Shown here: positions 46,708 through 54,162 of the stretch, piece by piece
Layout: each line of letters opens with the position of its first letter
Position numbering within the stretch: the stretch's first letter is position 1
Assembly (NCBI GenBank): GCA_945873625.1
Contig: CAMCDS010000007.1
Location: 1-64,000 of the forward strand
Direction of reading: 5' to 3'
From: an uncultured Porphyromonadaceae bacterium
GTDB taxonomy: Bacteria > Bacteroidota > Bacteroidia > Bacteroidales > Muribaculaceae
DNA: 64,000 bases
Position numbers and translations under genes: made by a program
The notes under the pieces: generated by a model
Told to the model about the DNA's origin: nothing
Seen by the model: the letters and a program-made list of their open reading frames with translations, nothing else
The model's database searches: none

Positions 46708-46853
46708 ACAGCGACAAAAACGAACGTACACAGCCGCCCGAAAATCCACGCCCGTCTTGCCGTTATGACGCGTGTGAAGCAGATGCATCTAAAGCGAAAA
46801 AACATCTCATCCGTGTGATTCCGACAGAAATATGAAAGATTCGTCTGCTTTTA

Positions 46854-47046
46854 GAGTATGTTTGAGTTTAACTTCTATTCACTTGAAGAGGATTTTTTGA
46901 GATGATTTCGCAAGTCGAAGAGGGAGCGATGCGGGCATCGTGACCGATGAGGCTTGGCGAAATCAGCCAAAAAAGACCTTCAAGGGGATAGAAAGACTTT
47001 TTTCGGAGTATGTTCAAATCAATTCGTGTTAAATTCAAACATACTC
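46854..47046 (+). mobile_element. MITE copy 3 (193 bp)
   Basis: Full-length copy with ends GAGTATGTTTGAGTTTAAC and GTTAAATTCAAACATACTC, flanked by a perfect TTA/TTA duplication (46851-46853 and 47047-47049). It is the reference orientation here (arm with TTCACTTGAAGAGG at the left). It has the same length as copy 2. It lies about 80 bp upstream of the promoter of the B12 operon. No transposase is encoded. Confidence 0.92.
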
Positions 47047-47104
47047 TTAGACCCAGTTCCATCATCGGATTCAGACCTTTACAACGACCCTCCTACATAA
47101 AAAA

Positions 47105-47136
47105 TTTTAGCATCTCGAAAAAAATACATACCTTTG
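47105..47136 (+). promoter_or_regulatory. Promoter of the cobalamin-riboswitch operon
   Basis: TTTTAG at 47105-47110 and TACCTTTG at 47129-47136 with about 18-nt spacing fit the Bacteroidota pattern. Transcription would start near 47143, just before the riboswitch. Confidence 0.65.
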
Positions 47137-47149
47137 CACCGAACTTTTA

Positions 47150-47415
47150 TAAAGTTGGTTTGCCGAAGGGCAATCAAAAGGGAATCGAGTGAGAATCTCG
47201 AGCAGACCCGCTGCTGTAAGTTTTCTTTACGAGTATGTTGAAATTCAACAATACTCCGTCTCATCTTCCGAAGCACTGTCTGCATTCGCAGACAGCTACC
47301 GAACGTCACTGGCCAAGCAAGAGTGCGGAGGCCGGGAAGGCGAAGATGACGGAAAACAAGCCAGAAGACCTGCCAACGTAATTTCGCATCAACGGCGCCC
47401 GGGGATTGGCGCTGC
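47150..47415 (+). promoter_or_regulatory. Cobalamin riboswitch
   Basis: The conserved blocks appear in order: AAAAGGGAATCGAGTGAGAA with TCTCGAGCAGACCCGCTGCTG (47175-47215; GGGAA, GTGAGAATC, CCCGC..CTGT core), a variable stem at 47231-47256, a CACTGG-like block near 47310, GGGAAGGCG near 47335, and the B12-box-like AAGCCAGAAGACCTGCC at 47360-47377. It precedes a BtuB-like receptor, the usual gene under this control; in this class adenosyl- or aquocobalamin binding turns expression off. Exact boundaries are approximate. Confidence 0.88.
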
Positions 47416-47434
47416 GAATAACTAAAATTATTGG

Positions 47435-49432
47435 ATGAAACGTCTTGTGTTCCGACACAAGCGGTGTTTTCCCGCCGCTATGTGCGCAATCTGCGCATCT
47501 ATATGCTCTGCCGAGGTTCCTGCCGAGGTCAGGCCCGACTCTGCAATCACTCTGAAAGAACTGAATGTCAGTGCTTCCAGAAAACCATTGGCCACTGTCC
47601 AGGAGCTGAAGGGGACCGACCTTCAGTCGCTTTCATCCACTTCCATCGCCGACGCCCTCAAGTATTTTGCCGGAGTCCAGATAAAAGACTATGGCGGACT
47701 CGGAGGTCTCAAGACCGTCAATGTCCGCTCGCTCGGAGCGCAGCACGTCGGCGTATATATCGACGGCATACGGATCACCAACGCCCAGAACGGGACTGTG
47801 GATTTAGGGAAATATTCCCTTTCCACTCTCGAATCCGTCTCTCTTTACAACGCCAACAAACTCGACATCTGCCAGTCGGCTTCCGAATTCGCTTCCGGAG
47901 CCACGGTCTACATGCGCACACGCCGCCCCGACCGCGACTCCATCAGTCTGCTCGGCGGATGGAGTTCGTTTCACACCTGGAGAGCCCGCGCCACAGCCGA
48001 GTTCGCCCGCAAGGGATGGTGCGGATTCATCGACGCAGAGTATCTGAACTCACGCGGCGACTATCCATTCCGCTACAAATCGCAATATGAAGATACTGTG
48101 GGACGCCGCCGAAACTCCGACATCGAGTTCACGCGAGTGGAGGGGACTCTCTTCAAGGGAGGATTCTCGTCGCACATGTATGCCTACTTCTCGGAACGCG
48201 GATGCCCCGGAGGAATAGTGCGCCGCCTTTCCGACAAATACAACAATGTAGGCCGAGAATGGGACACCGATATTTTCGTCCAGGCATCTTACGAGCACTC
48301 TTTCGGGCGGCAGCACAGAATCAAGGCAAACGCCAAGTACACATACGAATACCTGCGCTACAACACCGACTACCCCGAAAATCAGAACACGGCACGCGTC
48401 GACAACCATTACTGGCAGAACGACGCCTACGCCTCGATATCGTATTCTTTCAGCCCCTGGCATTTTCTTTCGCTCAACTGCGGCTACGACGCCAGGATAT
48501 CGTGGCTCGACGCAGACCTCAAGAAGTTCTGCCCGGTGCGCCGGCTCGACCAGAAAGCCGTACTTGCAGCACAGTTCGACTGGCGCTCTCTCCGTCTGGC
48601 CGCATCGATACTCTACCAGCACTACAAAGACCATACGGAACTGAAAACAGGAGCGGCCGATCCGCTCTCGCGATTCACTCCGGCCATCACCCTGGGATAC
48701 TCATTTCTCGGAATCTCACTGAGAGGATGGTACAAATGCATATTCCGCGCCCCTACCCTCAACGACCTTTACTATACCCAGGCGGGAAACCGGAACCTGA
48801 AACCTGAATACACGCGCCAATGGAACGTCGGCGTCGAGTATCAGTATGGACGCGGACCGTGGAGCGTCTCCGCACAGGCCGACGCCTATCTCAATTATAT
48901 CGACAACAGAATCGTGTGCCTGCCCCTGAAAGGCACCTATACATGGTCGATGATGAACTATGGAAAAACTTTCTGCCGGGGGCTTAACGCCACGCTATCC
49001 GGAGTGGCCGCCACCCGGGGATGGCGTTTCTCGCTGACTGCCTCGCTCACATGGCAGAAAGACCTCAACCGCACGAATCCCGACGACCCTGACACTTACG
49101 ACAAGCCGATATGCTATTCCCCTACCCTGTCATACGGCATCACCGGGATAATAGCATGGAGAATGATATCGCTCACCGTCTCCGACCTGCACGTCTCAAA
49201 GAGGATGTGGTCGTATGCCGATCCGAGAGACATACTCGAACCATACAACAACGTAGACCTCAAGCTCACGGCACGATATCTGGGAATCACAGCCTCGCTT
49301 GAAGTGAACGACCTCCTTGACGTGCAGTATGAACACATCCCGCGCTATCCGATGCCCGGGCGCAGCTTCAGGCTGACACTCTCCTACTCCTTCGACGCCA
49401 TAATCAAATCCGTAAAAACGAGAAAGATCTGA
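47435..49432 (+). CDS. btuB: TonB-dependent outer-membrane receptor, BtuB-like (cobalamin)
   Basis: A 665-residue receptor with a signal peptide (to about residue 26), a TonB-box-like start (ITLKELNVSASR), a plug domain (SLSSTSIADALKYFAGVQIKDYG, VNVRSLGAQHVGVYIDGIR) and a 22-strand barrel ending FRLTLSYSF near the C-terminus. It has no SusC-type N-terminal extension. The riboswitch immediately upstream and the BtuG-like gene 39 bp downstream assign cobalamin as the ligand; this is inference from context and family. The extra 15 residues after the final strand are basic. Confidence 0.9.
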   Translation: MKRLVFRHKRCFPAAMCAICASICSAEVPAEVRPDSAITLKELNVSASRKPLATVQELKGTDLQSLSSTSIADALKYFAGVQIKDYGGLGGLKTVNVRSLGAQHVGVYIDGIRITNAQNGTVDLGKYSLSTLESVSLYNANKLDICQSASEFASGATVYMRTRRPDRDSISLLGGWSSFHTWRARATAEFARKGWCGFIDAEYLNSRGDYPFRYKSQYEDTVGRRRNSDIEFTRVEGTLFKGGFSSHMYAYFSERGCPGGIVRRLSDKYNNVGREWDTDIFVQASYEHSFGRQHRIKANAKYTYEYLRYNTDYPENQNTARVDNHYWQNDAYASISYSFSPWHFLSLNCGYDARISWLDADLKKFCPVRRLDQKAVLAAQFDWRSLRLAASILYQHYKDHTELKTGAADPLSRFTPAITLGYSFLGISLRGWYKCIFRAPTLNDLYYTQAGNRNLKPEYTRQWNVGVEYQYGRGPWSVSAQADAYLNYIDNRIVCLPLKGTYTWSMMNYGKTFCRGLNATLSGVAATRGWRFSLTASLTWQKDLNRTNPDDPDTYDKPICYSPTLSYGITGIIAWRMISLTVSDLHVSKRMWSYADPRDILEPYNNVDLKLTARYLGITASLEVNDLLDVQYEHIPRYPMPGRSFRLTLSYSFDAIIKSVKTRKI

Positions 49433-49471
49433 CAACCGGCATCCTTACGTATGCCCAATATGCCTATTGCG

Positions 49472-50767
49472 ATGAAATACACAAAAATGAAACCTATGGC
49501 AGCGGCGGCATGCCTTGCACTGGCCGCATCGCTGCCCTGCGCCTCGGAAGCCAGGGAACGGATAATCCTGCTAAACGAGGGGAACTGGCAGGCCGACAAC
49601 GGCAGAATCTCGTATTTCGACGACGGCCGTGTCGTGAGCAACGAATGGTTCAGGGAGACTAACGGCTATAAGCTCGGCGACACCCCTAACGACATCATTC
49701 AGGTGAACGAAAGCCTCATTGCCATAGCGGTCAACTGGTCGAACATCGTCCAGTTCATCACCCCCGACGGCAAAGCGGTAGCCGCCACCGAGGATGTGCC
49801 CAACAACCGCAAGCTCGCTTCCGACGGAGGAGACTACGTATATGTGTCCTCCTACGGCCATGAAGTCGGTACAGTCGACGGAATGGCCTATTTCACAAAA
49901 GGCTACGTCGCCAAAATCGACGTCAGGACATTCAAGGTTGTGGATGCCGTGGAGGTCGGCTACGAGCCGGAGGGAATCGCTTTCTATAAAGGCCGACTGT
50001 TCGTGGCCAACACCGGCGGATATGCCTTCAACGAGAACCACGACTACGAGACAACCGTAAGCGTTATCGACGCGAAGACAATGAGCATCGAGAGAAACAT
50101 CGATACAGGACAGATAAACCTCTACGGAAAGATGTCGCAGAGCGGCAGGTACCTGTGCATAAACTCTCCGGGCGACTACTACGACACTCCGGCCGCCACA
50201 ATCATCCTCGACTGCGACGCGGCCCTCGAAGGCAGACCCGACAGGGAATGCTATGTCCCGCTCCCTTACGCCTCCACCTACAACTGCACCGCTTCCGACG
50301 GAACGTTCTATGCCATCGGTTCAAGATACTCATACTACACCGGAGAATACACTTTCAACTATGTCTGCATCGACCCTGCAAAAGTGTTTGAAAGTTCGGG
50401 GGGCGAAGGGGTAAGCGAGAAAATGCCCGGCAGCGTAATCGACGACATAAAGGGGATGGCGATGCCCTACGGCATATACGTGAACCCCTATTCGGGCTAC
50501 ATCTACGCCACCGACGCCGGAGAGTTCGTAGCCGCCGGAGCGCTTTACCAATGGACGCCCGACGGCGAGCTGGCGGGCGTCCACAAGGTCTACATCAACC
50601 CGGCGCATTTCCTGGCCCTGCCCGACGAGAAAAACGAGTCGGCTGAGATTATAGAAGCCGACGCCACCTCAGGCAACATCATATTCAACCTGCAGGGCAT
50701 ACCGGTCAGCAACCCTGTGCCCGGACAAATCTACATCAGCAACGGAAAAAAGTTTATCCATAAATAA
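49472..50767 (+). CDS. BtuG-like beta-propeller, surface cobalamin-binding protein
   Basis: A protein of about 431 residues with a signal peptide and a YncE/DUF5074-type seven-bladed propeller: repeated motifs such as VNESLIAIAVNWSNIVQFI, KGYVAKIDVRTFKVVDAVEVG and GRLFVANTGGYAF. BtuG in Bacteroides is such a propeller, binds B12 very tightly and caps BtuB; position after btuB and under the riboswitch supports this. Unlike classical BtuG there is no clean lipobox, and the C-terminus has the surface tail NIIFNLQGIPVSNPVPGQIY. In-frame ATGs at 49451, 49460 and 49487 are alternatives; 49472 gives the best signal peptide. Confidence 0.78.
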   Translation: MKYTKMKPMAAAACLALAASLPCASEARERIILLNEGNWQADNGRISYFDDGRVVSNEWFRETNGYKLGDTPNDIIQVNESLIAIAVNWSNIVQFITPDGKAVAATEDVPNNRKLASDGGDYVYVSSYGHEVGTVDGMAYFTKGYVAKIDVRTFKVVDAVEVGYEPEGIAFYKGRLFVANTGGYAFNENHDYETTVSVIDAKTMSIERNIDTGQINLYGKMSQSGRYLCINSPGDYYDTPAATIILDCDAALEGRPDRECYVPLPYASTYNCTASDGTFYAIGSRYSYYTGEYTFNYVCIDPAKVFESSGGEGVSEKMPGSVIDDIKGMAMPYGIYVNPYSGYIYATDAGEFVAAGALYQWTPDGELAGVHKVYINPAHFLALPDEKNESAEIIEADATSGNIIFNLQGIPVSNPVPGQIYISNGKKFIHK

Positions 50768-50783
50768 TCTAACTTTAATCACT

Positions 50784-53700
50784 ATGAGACTTAAATCCCT
50801 CGGGATTGTCGCCCTTTCACTGCTCGGGCTGGCTCCTGCATACGCCACCAACGTGCTTGTGAAAATGAACAGGACATCCCAAACGATGACAATGGTGTCG
50901 AAAGACACCAACGAACCCGTAGCGACCGGCGAGCCGAACGGCCTGGAATACACCTTCGACGCCACACCCGGACGCTACATCCTCACGGCATACGCCACCG
51001 ACAAGACAACCGTCAACGGCACCATTGAGGTTACCGTAGCCGCCGACTCCGTACAGCAGCAGCTCACCATCCTCACATGCACCACCTACGTCACCAACAA
51101 GAACAGCGACGGCAGCCAGTGGACCATCGACAAAGGCGACTACGAAATCGACCTCAGGGTCAGCAGTCGCGAAGGCGTATCCCAGACCGTAACCCCGGGC
51201 AAAAGCACTACTGCCGGACGTACCACTTTCATCACCCTAAACGGCAACAGCTATTATCTGGCGTTCATCCCCTCCGAAGCCCATCAGGCAGAGGGCTTCA
51301 CCACCCTCTACCGTTCCGGCACTCTGACCGCGGGCATCAACATCTCCGGGGCCATACCCAAGGGTGAGGACTATTCGCTGACCGTCCCCAAAGACGCCTA
51401 CTTCGAGCTGAACCAGAAATTCTCTCATTTCGTAGACTTCACCCGAATCGAGCCCAAGTCTGTCTCGACCGAAGGCGACCTCAAACGCATCACCTACTAT
51501 CTCGCCCAGGGACAGACCTACAACTTCCGCTCTTCCATACCGGGTAAACTCACCCGTGGCGGCTACTTCACGATGACGGCCGACGCCTCGAAACGCCCCG
51601 ACATCTCTATCAGCGCCTCCGAATATGAACACGACCCCGCCGCCATCAACCATGACGCAAAGGCAAACTCGGGCTTCGAGACCGGCGACATATTTGTCAA
51701 CATCAATGCACGCGGTCATCTCGAGCTCAAGCCGGGCGACATCTACAAGGCCCACGCCATGCGCACATGGGAGCTGACCGATAACTCGACCAACAACTAC
51801 TTCATCGAACCCGACTTCCACTATACCGTAATCGGCCTTGACGGCAAACCATCCGACAACGTTGTCCGCATCAATGAGCGGCAAGGGTCGGCCTGGGCCG
51901 ACATCGAGGCAATAGGCGAAGGCACTGCAATCGTGCTCGTCACCTACGACGGAATCGGACTCAACTGGTACAACAACGGGGTGAAACGAGAATACATGGG
52001 CGGAGAATACTGGGGAGCCATCTGGCCCGAAAACACCGCTGTCTATGTAGTTACCGTCGGCAACGCCACATCTGCGGCTGTCCCCAACATGTTCATAAAC
52101 GAGGACTACAACACAGGCACGCTGAAAACTGCCGGAAATAAAGTGGACGCGGAGCACGACGTGTTCTATTATCTCGACTCGGAAGAAGGCGCCACATATA
52201 CATTCAAACCCGAAGGAGTGGTCGAGACTGAGATAGCCTACCCCGTCATCGGCGAACGCATGGCCACCTACACAGGCTTCGGCAAAGAGGGCGTCACGGC
52301 CAACGCCGACGGCTCATTCTCGGTACTGCTCCGCCACGGGCGCCAGATAGTGAAAATGACCGATTCCGCCGGCAAGTCGGTCTATCAGGTGCTCACGGCA
52401 AAGAAATGCCATCGCGAAATCGTCAACGCCACCCGCGAGGGGAGCCAAATCTTCCAGCCGGGCGACGAAGTCAAAATCAAGTATTCCGGTCTCTTCCATC
52501 CAGCCAACAAGCTCGCCGGCATCTACAATATGTCGGCCTACGTTACCTACAACAACATTCCAAACGGCACGTCGCTCATCCTCAGCCCCAACCAGTACAA
52601 ATTCGGTTCCTCTGAGACCGCCCAGACCGTTACCGTGCGGATTCCTGCCGACCACGACGCGCAGGCCAATCCTCTGCTTGTGATGGACGAAGGCGTGATT
52701 CAGGTGAACGGCTACGGCGACCCTATCGGCAACCACCGCATCATAGACCCTAACAACGGTCGCTCGCCAAACTTCACGGCAGTGGCCCACAAGACCTACT
52801 TCGGGCACATACCTGACGCCGTAATCAACGTCTCGCCGACCCGCACGTTCGACATCCACATCGAGTGCGACCAGCCTGACAGCGAGGTTTCCGTCTCGTT
52901 CGGAGGAACCGTTCTGGCGCCTGACGCAGAAAACGTCTACCACGGCACCTACGGCACTTACCACGTAGTGGCGTCCAAACCCGGTTTCCGGTGCTTCCGC
53001 AAGTCGTATGTCATCGGCGACGACGACGAAGGCACGCAGACTTTCTCCATTACGCTGACCGAAGCCGAAAACGCATGGGACGGCAAGACGACAGCCGAAC
53101 CGGCGTTTGAGAACGACCGTTATGTCATATCGACTCCTGCCGAAATGAAATGGTTTGCCAATACGGTCAACAATGGAAACGCTTCGGCCAACGCCGTCCT
53201 CACGGCCGACATAGACCTCGGCGACTACGACTGGACGCCTGTCGGCACTGCAAGCGCCAAACCATTCAGCGGCAGCTTCGAGGGCAGAGGCCATCGGATT
53301 GACGGTCTTTATGTAGATATGCCCACGGCCCAGTATGCCGGACTCTTCGGCCACGTGAAGGGCTCGGCGGCCGACCGACACGCCTCTATAAGCGGCATCA
53401 CCGTCGACGGCACTGTCAACGCCAAGGGATATGCCGGAGGCATCGCCGGCATAGTCAACGCCTACGCCGACATCGACACCTGCGCCAACTATGCCTCTGT
53501 CAACGTGACCAACGAGTTCTGCGGCGGCATCGCCGGCTGTGTGGCCGTCAATACGTCGTCCATCGCCAACTGCTACAATGCCGGCGCCATAAAAGGTGCG
53601 GGTAAATGCGGTGGCATCGCTGGAAGCGCCGCTAACGCGAAGGTTGAGAATGTGCACAATGTAGGCACAATTGACTTCATCCGTGCTTCGGGAGGATGCG

Positions 53701-54074
53701 TTGGCAACAATAAACTCACCGGACTCAAAAACGCATTCTCTACCGTGGAAGGCGACGTTACCGACGGACAGAAAACCGTATCGGAAGAACAGATGAAATC
53801 TGGCGAGATAGCATTCCTGCTCGGAAAAGCGTTCGGACAGACATTAGGCGAGGACGCCTACCCCGTGTTTGGCGCTCCTGAGGTGAAATATGACCCGGCT
53901 ACCGATACTTACTACAACTTTGACCTGCCTACTTCCGTAGATGAGCTCGGCGAGGAAACGGCTGTGCCAGAACTCTACTTCAATCCGGAAGGAATCGCGT
54001 CGACGAAGCCCTATAAGGGATTCAATATCATACGTATGAGCGACGGCAGCATCCGCAAGGTCTTCATCCGATAG
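50784..54074 (+). CDS. Large secreted GLUG-motif protein of the B12 operon
   Basis: A 1096-residue protein with a signal peptide (MRLKSLGIVALSLLGLAPAYA). The middle (about 25-760) is a chain of beta-rich segments with no family I recognise, including several NNYF, HDVFYYLDSEEGATYTF and GTQTF blocks. GLUG-like repeats occupy about 850-970 (YAGGIAGIVNAYADIDTC, CGGIAGCVAVNTSSIANCYN, CGGIAGSAANAKVENVHN). The C-terminus is the surface tail ELYFNPEGIASTKPYKGFNI. It begins 16 bp after the BtuG-like gene and is followed by a terminator, so it is the last gene of the riboswitch operon. A role in B12 capture is inference from position only. Confidence 0.8.
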   Translation: MRLKSLGIVALSLLGLAPAYATNVLVKMNRTSQTMTMVSKDTNEPVATGEPNGLEYTFDATPGRYILTAYATDKTTVNGTIEVTVAADSVQQQLTILTCTTYVTNKNSDGSQWTIDKGDYEIDLRVSSREGVSQTVTPGKSTTAGRTTFITLNGNSYYLAFIPSEAHQAEGFTTLYRSGTLTAGINISGAIPKGEDYSLTVPKDAYFELNQKFSHFVDFTRIEPKSVSTEGDLKRITYYLAQGQTYNFRSSIPGKLTRGGYFTMTADASKRPDISISASEYEHDPAAINHDAKANSGFETGDIFVNINARGHLELKPGDIYKAHAMRTWELTDNSTNNYFIEPDFHYTVIGLDGKPSDNVVRINERQGSAWADIEAIGEGTAIVLVTYDGIGLNWYNNGVKREYMGGEYWGAIWPENTAVYVVTVGNATSAAVPNMFINEDYNTGTLKTAGNKVDAEHDVFYYLDSEEGATYTFKPEGVVETEIAYPVIGERMATYTGFGKEGVTANADGSFSVLLRHGRQIVKMTDSAGKSVYQVLTAKKCHREIVNATREGSQIFQPGDEVKIKYSGLFHPANKLAGIYNMSAYVTYNNIPNGTSLILSPNQYKFGSSETAQTVTVRIPADHDAQANPLLVMDEGVIQVNGYGDPIGNHRIIDPNNGRSPNFTAVAHKTYFGHIPDAVINVSPTRTFDIHIECDQPDSEVSVSFGGTVLAPDAENVYHGTYGTYHVVASKPGFRCFRKSYVIGDDDEGTQTFSITLTEAENAWDGKTTAEPAFENDRYVISTPAEMKWFANTVNNGNASANAVLTADIDLGDYDWTPVGTASAKPFSGSFEGRGHRIDGLYVDMPTAQYAGLFGHVKGSAADRHASISGITVDGTVNAKGYAGGIAGIVNAYADIDTCANYASVNVTNEFCGGIAGCVAVNTSSIANCYNAGAIKGAGKCGGIAGSAANAKVENVHNVGTIDFIRASGGCVGNNKLTGLKNAFSTVEGDVTDGQKTVSEEQMKSGEIAFLLGKAFGQTLGEDAYPVFGAPEVKYDPATDTYYNFDLPTSVDELGEETAVPELYFNPEGIASTKPYKGFNIIRMSDGSIRKVFIR

Positions 54075-54102
54075 GCATATATACCCTACCTTGATAATGA
54101 CG

Positions 54103-54135
54103 GGAGGCAATCTGTGATTAAACATGATTGCCTCC
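54103..54135 (+). terminator. Terminator of the B12 operon
   Basis: GGAGGCAATC (54103-54112) pairs perfectly with GATTGCCTCC (54126-54135). It lies 29 bp after the GLUG gene and 28 bp before the convergent glycosyltransferase's stop. Confidence 0.85.
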
Positions 54136-54162
54136 TGCATTGCGTTTATTAAACCCGGGCTT

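Follow-up and report, generated by a model that had tools for sequence, protein, structure and literature searches.

Competition for vitamin B12 shapes gut communities. The closest described counterparts of the locus reported here are the BtuBG units of Bacteroides (BtuB1-BtuG1 and BtuB2-BtuG2), which have in common with it a cobalamin riboswitch, a BtuB1-like receptor, and an adjoining BtuG-type propeller, and the accessory B12-binding surface lipoproteins BtuH and BtuJ, which, like the protein that we call P1, are riboswitch controlled and encoded beside btuB/btuG. The B12-binding domain of BtuJ is DUF4465. In B. thetaiotaomicron, BtuL and BtuK are likewise products of accessory genes in riboswitch operons, and BtuL is co-regulated yet does not bind B12 (PMC12751083), a precedent for a nonbinding partner. 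Bacteroidota B12 loci often contain genes with no assigned role (PMC6143338); the P1 family gives one of them a defined domain. Our literature search found no paper joining the GLUG motif to vitamin B12 or a cobalamin riboswitch to the Muribaculaceae.

Organization of the locus

The window analyzed is a 64,000-nucleotide stretch of contig CAMCDS010000007.1, from an uncultured member of the Muribaculaceae. An initial annotation had described an operon in it running from a promoter through a riboswitch and three genes to a terminator, and all of these elements were recovered:

47129..47136, + strand, promoter -7 box TACCTTTG (pattern search; Bacteroidetes-type TAnnTTTG, a consensus match only)
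47139..47391, + strand, cobalamin riboswitch aptamer (RF00174, full-length model, 82.4 bits)
47435..49432, + strand, BtuB-like TonB-dependent cobamide receptor, 665 amino acids (Pfam barrel and plug)
49472..50767, + strand, BtuG-like beta-propeller (open reading frame from 49451; PDB matches to the BtuG group)
50784..54074, + strand, P1, a predicted secreted protein of 1,096 amino acids (open reading frame; family analysis)
54093..54143, + strand, intrinsic-terminator-type hairpin between convergent genes (folding energy)

The -7 box stands three bases upstream of the riboswitch, for which the RF00174 gathering cutoff is 31.5 bits, and the terminator hairpin folds with -28.1 kcal/mol (z = -7.5 versus shuffled sequences). 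Of the two short gaps reported between the genes, the 16 bp separating the BtuG-like gene from P1 was confirmed; the 39 bp holds only if the BtuG-like protein starts at the ATG at 49472, since the first ATG of its reading frame, at 49451, leaves 18 bp after the BtuB-like gene. Features of BtuBG loci found here are the cobalamin riboswitch leader, the BtuB-type TonB-dependent receptor, and the BtuG-type beta-propeller. The nearest PDB sequence to the receptor is BtuB1 of B. thetaiotaomicron (8blw_A, E = 1.3e-83), and the propeller matched 13 PDB chains, best 8ptd, 8ptf, and 8blw_B (E of about 1e-17).

A conserved core defines the P1 family

The regions of P1 are as follows:

50847..51353, + strand, N-terminal beta-rich region, residues 22 to 190
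51354..52862, + strand, conserved core, residues 191 to 693 (nested HMM bounds, alignment A3)
52863..53078, + strand, Ig/transthyretin-like linker, residues ~694 to 765 (model)
53112..53783, + strand, GLUG region, residues ~777 to 1000 (similarity to Vescimonas H2; optional module)
53967..54071, + strand, C-terminal sorting-type tail, kept among P1 orthologues (secretion route predicted)

P1 had been introduced as a GLUG protein. P1 itself has no Pfam GLUG match, but a GLUG-type region is clear in orthologues, with PF07581 above cutoff in L039, L049, L050, and L086, and the P1 region is 34.7% identical to Vescimonas H2 (E = 1e-32). C-terminal modules are optional among P1 relatives (GLUG, Big_2, InlB-type, Flg_new, and, in Vescimonas, dockerin), and the N-terminal region, found in Vescimonas H1, is missing from L086 and L087. 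Because core-only forms exist (L083 and L085) and the genome's other GLUG-type matches (C17 and C3) lie on contigs bearing none of its four riboswitches, we rejected GLUG as the defining feature; by sequence comparison, the family is defined by the core (residues ~190 to 693).

The core is conserved along its whole 500 residues (48 to 66% between orthologues, alignment A3) and carries invariant Arg, Trp, and Tyr residues and a near-invariant D-x-E-x-D motif across two phyla. It has no match in Pfam, NCBIfam, or PDB sequences; searches of PDB and NCBIfam with whole P1 gave nothing useful, and profile A1 drew a blank in PDB as well. Neither P1 nor profile A1 resembled BtuH or the H-domain of BtuG1 in the PDB sequence search. 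Pfam placed no DUF4465 in P1, the L078 fusion being the one case in which this domain joins the core, and P1 has no DUF4430 or alpha/alpha toroid, both of which occur in Vescimonas relatives. AlphaFold2 models from a four-sequence alignment were of low confidence (pLDDT of 55 for residues 22 to 773 and 51.5 for the core alone), the linker being the best-modeled part (pLDDT of ~80 to 86); Foldseek comparison of these poor models with PDB returned just generic Ig/S-layer strings (TM of ~0.1), which we leave uninterpreted.

P1 travels with cobalamin riboswitches and known or likely B12 binders

The initial annotation had named homologues lying mostly outside B12 loci as the result that would count against a cobalamin role. 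The survey pointed the other way: among the 22 P1-core loci that could be assessed, 21 are downstream of a same-strand cobalamin riboswitch, and the lone exception lies behind btuG. The probability of such linkage by chance is about 1e-43 on a naive calculation and about 1e-17 if only 8 loci are independent. Counted among the 21 is a P1 paralogue in the same genome that begins a second unit, behind a different riboswitch, and is followed by a DUF4465 gene; the pair recurs in L047 and L087, and a P1 relative is the first gene of riboswitch units in L041, L047, and L087. Of 111 genomes in the genus, 12 carry P1, which is therefore dispensable. Among cultured strains, Prevotella koreensis KCOM 3155 has a P1 operon. 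In a 396-genome sample of the phylum it occurred only in its home genome, and the viral and phage collections held no relatives. The large genes of the other type of B12 operon in the genus were considered as possible P1 forms and rejected, since even an unfiltered search found no core in them; both of their proteins scanned by Pfam bear DUF5074 propellers.

Fusions tie the core to known or likely B12-binding domains in two phyla. Transcobalamins are built from DUF4430 and an alpha/alpha toroid, and both parts occur in P1-colinear proteins of Vescimonas (Bacillota): H5, of 2,200 amino acids, joins them to the P1 architecture in a single protein, and H1 has the order DUF4430, P1, toroid. Only this domain pair suggests a likeness to transcobalamin, and the nearest solved sequences to the toroid are squalene-hopene cyclases. 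A further Vescimonas protein, H2, has P1 with GLUG and dockerin and lies downstream of a sub-threshold RF00174 match (E = 1.1e-6). In the Bacteroidales, L078 has the core fused to DUF4465, which binds B12 (PMC12751083, PMC13398666), and adjoins a BtuH-domain gene.

Sorting tails and predicted export

Read by pattern, not by a signal-peptide predictor, the BtuG-like protein has no convincing lipobox and so does not read as a surface lipoprotein; it ends in a type-IX-like sorting tail. An anchor comparison found the same in nearly every BtuG of P1 operons, whereas the BtuG of other operons is a lipoprotein. P1 operons thereby point to a second way to hold the BtuG lid at the surface, by a sorting tail instead of a lipid. 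The distances of BtuG and P1 correlate (r = 0.50, permutation p = 0.001), and co-divergence of BtuB with P1 is weak (r = 0.27). A tail common to P1 and the BtuG-like protein had been noted. It is a general sorting tail: the profile built on the BtuG-like tail matches some 20 other sites in this genome, and we dropped the shared tail as specific evidence of partnership. The tail of P1 is a looser variant that this profile does not match. Neither protein matches Por_Secre_tail (PF18962), although the P1 relatives L041, L076, L077, L078, and L087 do. The genome encodes Por_Secre_tail proteins and the type IX gene SprA/Sov (TIGR04189, 2,678 bits). P1 is predicted to be nonlipidated, and its features are consistent with export by type IX secretion and a location at the cell surface.

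Proposed role of P1

Near-exclusive residence in B12-switched operons and fusions to known or likely B12 binders indicate that the P1 family, which has no described function, very probably represents a new component of B12 scavenging in bacteria. The proposal of a new cobalamin-capture or surface-adaptor component thus gains support from both the 21 of 22 loci and the DUF4465 and DUF4430-toroid fusions. We consider it likely that P1 itself is exported, repressible by B12, and held at the surface as one component of a cobamide-uptake unit of the BtuBG type. In cells short of cobamide, the riboswitch would permit synthesis of the whole operon, with BtuB as the outer-membrane channel, BtuG as its cap, and P1 as an extended chain of beta-sandwich domains held by its type-IX-like tail. 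P1 would concentrate cobamide at the surface before handing it to BtuG/BtuB. It may do so as a binder in its own right, as a dock that displays other proteins able to bind cobamide, or as both; those partners would be BtuG in this operon and DUF4465, BtuH, or DUF4430 proteins at other loci. Both this role in capture and physical contact between P1 and BtuG are inferred.

Two versions of this explanation differ in what the core does. That the core itself binds cobamide, capturing it as BtuH and BtuJ do but with another fold, and adding a second site in the DUF4430/toroid fusions, is a prospect just short of even: the near-exclusive riboswitch linkage, the P1 relatives that come first in their riboswitch units, and the invariant residues and D-x-E-x-D motif speak for it. 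However, nearly every P1 adjoins, or is fused to, a protein or domain known or likely to bind B12, so P1 may not bind cobamide itself; the core has no sequence resemblance to a solved B12 binder, and the models are too poor for a pocket search. That near-constant company instead favors a scaffold or stalk that binds no ligand, its tandem beta-sandwich domains docking or displaying BtuG, DUF4465, BtuH, or DUF4430 in place of the lipid anchor of other operons. Such a scaffold, plausible at somewhat less than even, would fit the swapping of partners, the fusions to binders, the free exchange of C-terminal modules, and the generic Foldseek matches, but the core is conserved beyond the needs of a spacer.

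Readings outside the proposed uptake role fare worse. The adhesin-like, modular C terminus (GLUG, Big_2, and InlB-type repeats) could mean that P1 binds a cobamide carrier or cell anchor, such as a host glycoprotein, mucin, or the vesicles of another bacterium, and is B12 regulated for bringing the cell to a B12 source; this is unlikely, as B12 loci keep the core and not the adhesin-like modules, which the core-only units lack. Genes of unknown role are frequent enough in Bacteroidota B12 loci (PMC6143338) for an ordinary surface protein to have landed behind a B12 operon by chance, but such hitchhiking is contradicted by the survey (21 of 22 loci, spread over two gene lineages and over operons of different types) and by fusions in two phyla, and is very improbable.

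More broadly than the uptake role, and more tentatively, at somewhat less than even, the P1 core may be an undescribed cobamide-acquisition domain common to gut Bacteroidota and Bacillota. It would form a surface cobamide trap, itself undescribed in the literature searched: in the former it would belong to a BtuBG machine that is apparently type IX anchored, and in the latter it would be fused to transcobalamin-like binding parts or borne on proteins with dockerin.

Comparison with known systems

Compared with the BtuBG units of Bacteroides, the locus has a BtuG with a sorting tail and no convincing lipobox, has no BtuH, and adds the large P1 gene, which is unnamed in the literature searched. 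P1 differs from BtuH and BtuJ in its far larger size, its predicted lack of lipidation, and the absence of any Pfam or PDB sequence match; its tie to BtuJ is through DUF4465 genes, which adjoin P1 and in one case are fused to its core. BtuL and BtuK differ in being reported as lipoproteins (PMC12751083). With GLUG-motif surface proteins (PF07581) P1 has in common, through its scoring orthologues, the motif of its C-terminal region, but the B12-linked part of P1 is the core and not GLUG. P1 follows a strict genomic rule, and gene fusions predict its partners. Both parts of the transcobalamin and intrinsic factor architecture, absent from P1, are joined with the P1 architecture in Vescimonas proteins, pointing to a module that Bacteroidota may have in common with Bacillota, where it stands beside transcobalamin-like parts.

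The window operon

All the elements that the initial annotation had read in this operon (riboswitch, BtuB-like and BtuG-like genes, P1 and closing hairpin) were confirmed.

Features of the window operon
3 bases upstream of the riboswitch: TAnnTTTG box (pattern match)
47139-47391: full-length cobalamin riboswitch (RF00174, 82.4 bits)
47435-49432, same strand as the riboswitch: BtuB-like receptor
49451 or 49472 to 50767, same strand: BtuG-like propeller
50784-54074, same strand: P1, 1096 residues
Operon end: hairpin (-28.1 kcal/mol, z -7.5)

Receptor and propeller are separated by 18 or 39 bp, depending on the start chosen, and propeller and P1 by 16 bp. Among solved sequences, the receptor comes closest to B. 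thetaiotaomicron BtuB1 (8blw_A, E 1.3e-83) and the propeller to BtuG-group entries (E about 1e-17); searches of Pfam, NCBIfam, and PDB with P1 gave no convincing match. Just 5' of the promoter lie inverted ends, AGAGTATGTTTGA and TCAAACATACTCT, about 200 bp apart (46850-47052), which a hairpin within the riboswitch, GAGTATGTT (47231-47256), resembles; together they possibly represent a MITE-like element.

Linkage of the P1 family to cobalamin riboswitches

The family shares a core at P1 residues 191 to 693 (nested HMM bounds). The N-terminal 190 residues are missing at L086 and L087, the proteins at L083 and L085 stop near residue 740, and the C-terminal modules vary among GLUG, Big_2, and Flg_new. 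GLUG does occur as one such module, but the label "GLUG protein" names the family's least informative part, since it is the core that is common. Within the core alignment (core numbering), Arg137, Trp139, and Tyr198 are invariant, as are both Asp residues of the motif D265-x-E-x-D269, its Glu being nearly so.

Core loci were collected by profile and sequence searches, and their neighborhoods were then scanned for RF00174 and gene order. Within the genus, 12 of 111 genomes carry the core, and in the sample from the order 5 of 393 do (home genome included in both); three further records, among them Prevotella koreensis, also have it. A cobalamin riboswitch lay upstream, on the same strand and through contiguous codirectional genes, at 21 of the 22 loci with a judgeable upstream region, the opposite of a distribution mostly outside B12 loci, which the initial annotation had named as contrary to its reading. 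The sole exception, L088, has a short core behind a btuG; a 23rd locus, L078, whose upstream region runs into a contig end, is outside the count. The naive probability of such linkage by chance is about 1e-43, or about 1e-17 with only 8 independent cases, values that take no account of common ancestry and are meant solely to rule out chance. At 35 other cobalamin riboswitch sites of the genus the core was absent (0/35) within the stretch read, some stretches being short.

The home genome (2.33 Mb, four cobalamin riboswitches) encodes a P1 paralogue (37% identical across P1 residues 4-686, E 8e-94) as the first gene behind the riboswitch of contig C5 (G000:C5:78321-83610, L041). This unit lacks btuB; its next gene encodes a lipoprotein-type DUF4988-collagen-DUF4465 protein, DUF4465 being the B12-binding domain of BtuJ (PMC12751083, PMC13398666). 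P1 residues 1-690 are common to the paralogue; GLUG is not, and at its C terminus the paralogue has Big_2 repeats with a Por_Secre_tail.

Unit orders containing P1 (P1', P1 paralogue)
riboswitch-btuB-btuG-P1: most units
riboswitch-btuG-P1: L081, L083, L085
riboswitch-P1'-DUF4465: L041, L047, L087
riboswitch-btuB-P1'-btuG-P1: genome G017, across two contig ends, join inferred
riboswitch-btuB-btuG-DUF4465-P1: L039
seven genes, with BtuH-like, propeller, and DUF4465 genes ahead of P1: L077

The order common at P1-less sites is btuB, lipoprotein btuG, btuH, a small undescribed domain (K), and another large protein. Cobalamin riboswitch operons repeatedly contain a small domain without a Pfam model (motif like ALVIQWxxxxxxYAxxFGYRW), in most cases encoded after btuB-btuG-btuH and sometimes fused into larger proteins (L076:4897-5766; equivalents at L097, L105, L107, L109, L111, L112, L115, L116, L117, L120, and L126). 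Single giant genes follow the riboswitch at L043 (G000:C46:51-7006, 2233 residues) and L124 (G017:C6, 2251 residues); both products have a DUF4465-type domain, and that of L043 also has BNR_assoc_N and PKD domains. At L106 (G021:C20) and L108 (G015:C2), a cobalamin riboswitch lies 335 to 497 bp 5' of putative aspartokinase/homoserine dehydrogenase, phosphoglycerate mutase, and threonine synthase genes (assigned by eye), possibly placing the threonine/methionine branch under B12 control.

Export and possible function of P1

With the exception of the one at L077, all BtuG-like proteins adjoining P1 lack a convincing lipobox and carry a short C-terminal tail (consensus IYNLQGIRVxxPxxGxIYIxNGKK). 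Those of P1-less units are mostly tailless lipoproteins, the exceptions at L083 and L085 being a second, tailed btuBG unit directly behind a P1 unit. SprA/Sov (2678 bits) and Por_Secre_tail proteins are encoded in the home genome, and we infer that P1 and the window BtuG would be exported by the type IX route. The short-tail profile matches 23 places in this genome, the window BtuG among them; the tail is thus general and does not by itself tie P1 to BtuG.

P1 is most likely a B12-repressible surface component that would capture or display cobamide and hand it over to BtuG and BtuB. Direct cobamide binding by P1 falls slightly short of an even prospect; the strong conservation of the 500-residue core, including its invariant residues and acidic motif, argues for it, as does the position of P1 as first gene in some units. 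A scaffold or display role is about as likely: in nearly every case a known or likely binder lies next to P1 or is fused to it, and there is a precedent in BtuL, which is co-regulated and shows no measurable B12 binding (PMC12751083). AlphaFold2 models of P1, of low confidence because the alignment was limited to four rows, suggest an all-beta protein of several sandwiches.

Fusions and comparison with known systems

At L078, one polypeptide joins DUF4465 (residues 123-327, E 2.7e-26) to a P1 core (498-975), and the product of the preceding gene has a BtuH domain (E 1.2e-82 to the H-domain of 8blw_B). Vescimonas fastidiosa (Bacillota) has three P1 relatives. Colinearity between H2 and P1 extends across the linker and into the GLUG region (E 3.4e-40 for the core; 34.7% identity, E 1e-32, for the GLUG part), and H2 is annotated with a dockerin-type C terminus; the RF00174 match ahead of it scores 28.7 bits, under the 31.5 cutoff (E 1.1e-6 for the record). 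In H5 (2200 residues) the same architecture continues into DUF4430 and then an alpha/alpha toroid, and in H1 the order is DUF4430, P1 N-domain and core, toroid. In one Vescimonas cluster (L091, NZ_AP023417.1 72653-98185), genes for a P1 relative and for cohesin, dockerin, DUF4430, and terpene-cyclase-like proteins follow a subthreshold cobalamin riboswitch; the cluster possibly encodes a cobamide complex assembled by cohesin and dockerin.

Vertebrate transcobalamins have an alpha/alpha barrel ahead of DUF4430. The latter domain forms their C terminus (PMC4350170). The closest PDB sequences to the Vescimonas toroid are squalene-hopene cyclases, not transcobalamins, and therefore the likeness would lie in the pairing of DUF4430 with a toroid.

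BtuBG uptake under riboswitch control, with accessory surface proteins, is an established kind of system, and its loci are known to contain numerous genes without an assigned function (PMC6143338, PMC8941943). No Pfam model covers the P1 core, and the open-access papers searched describe no function for it.
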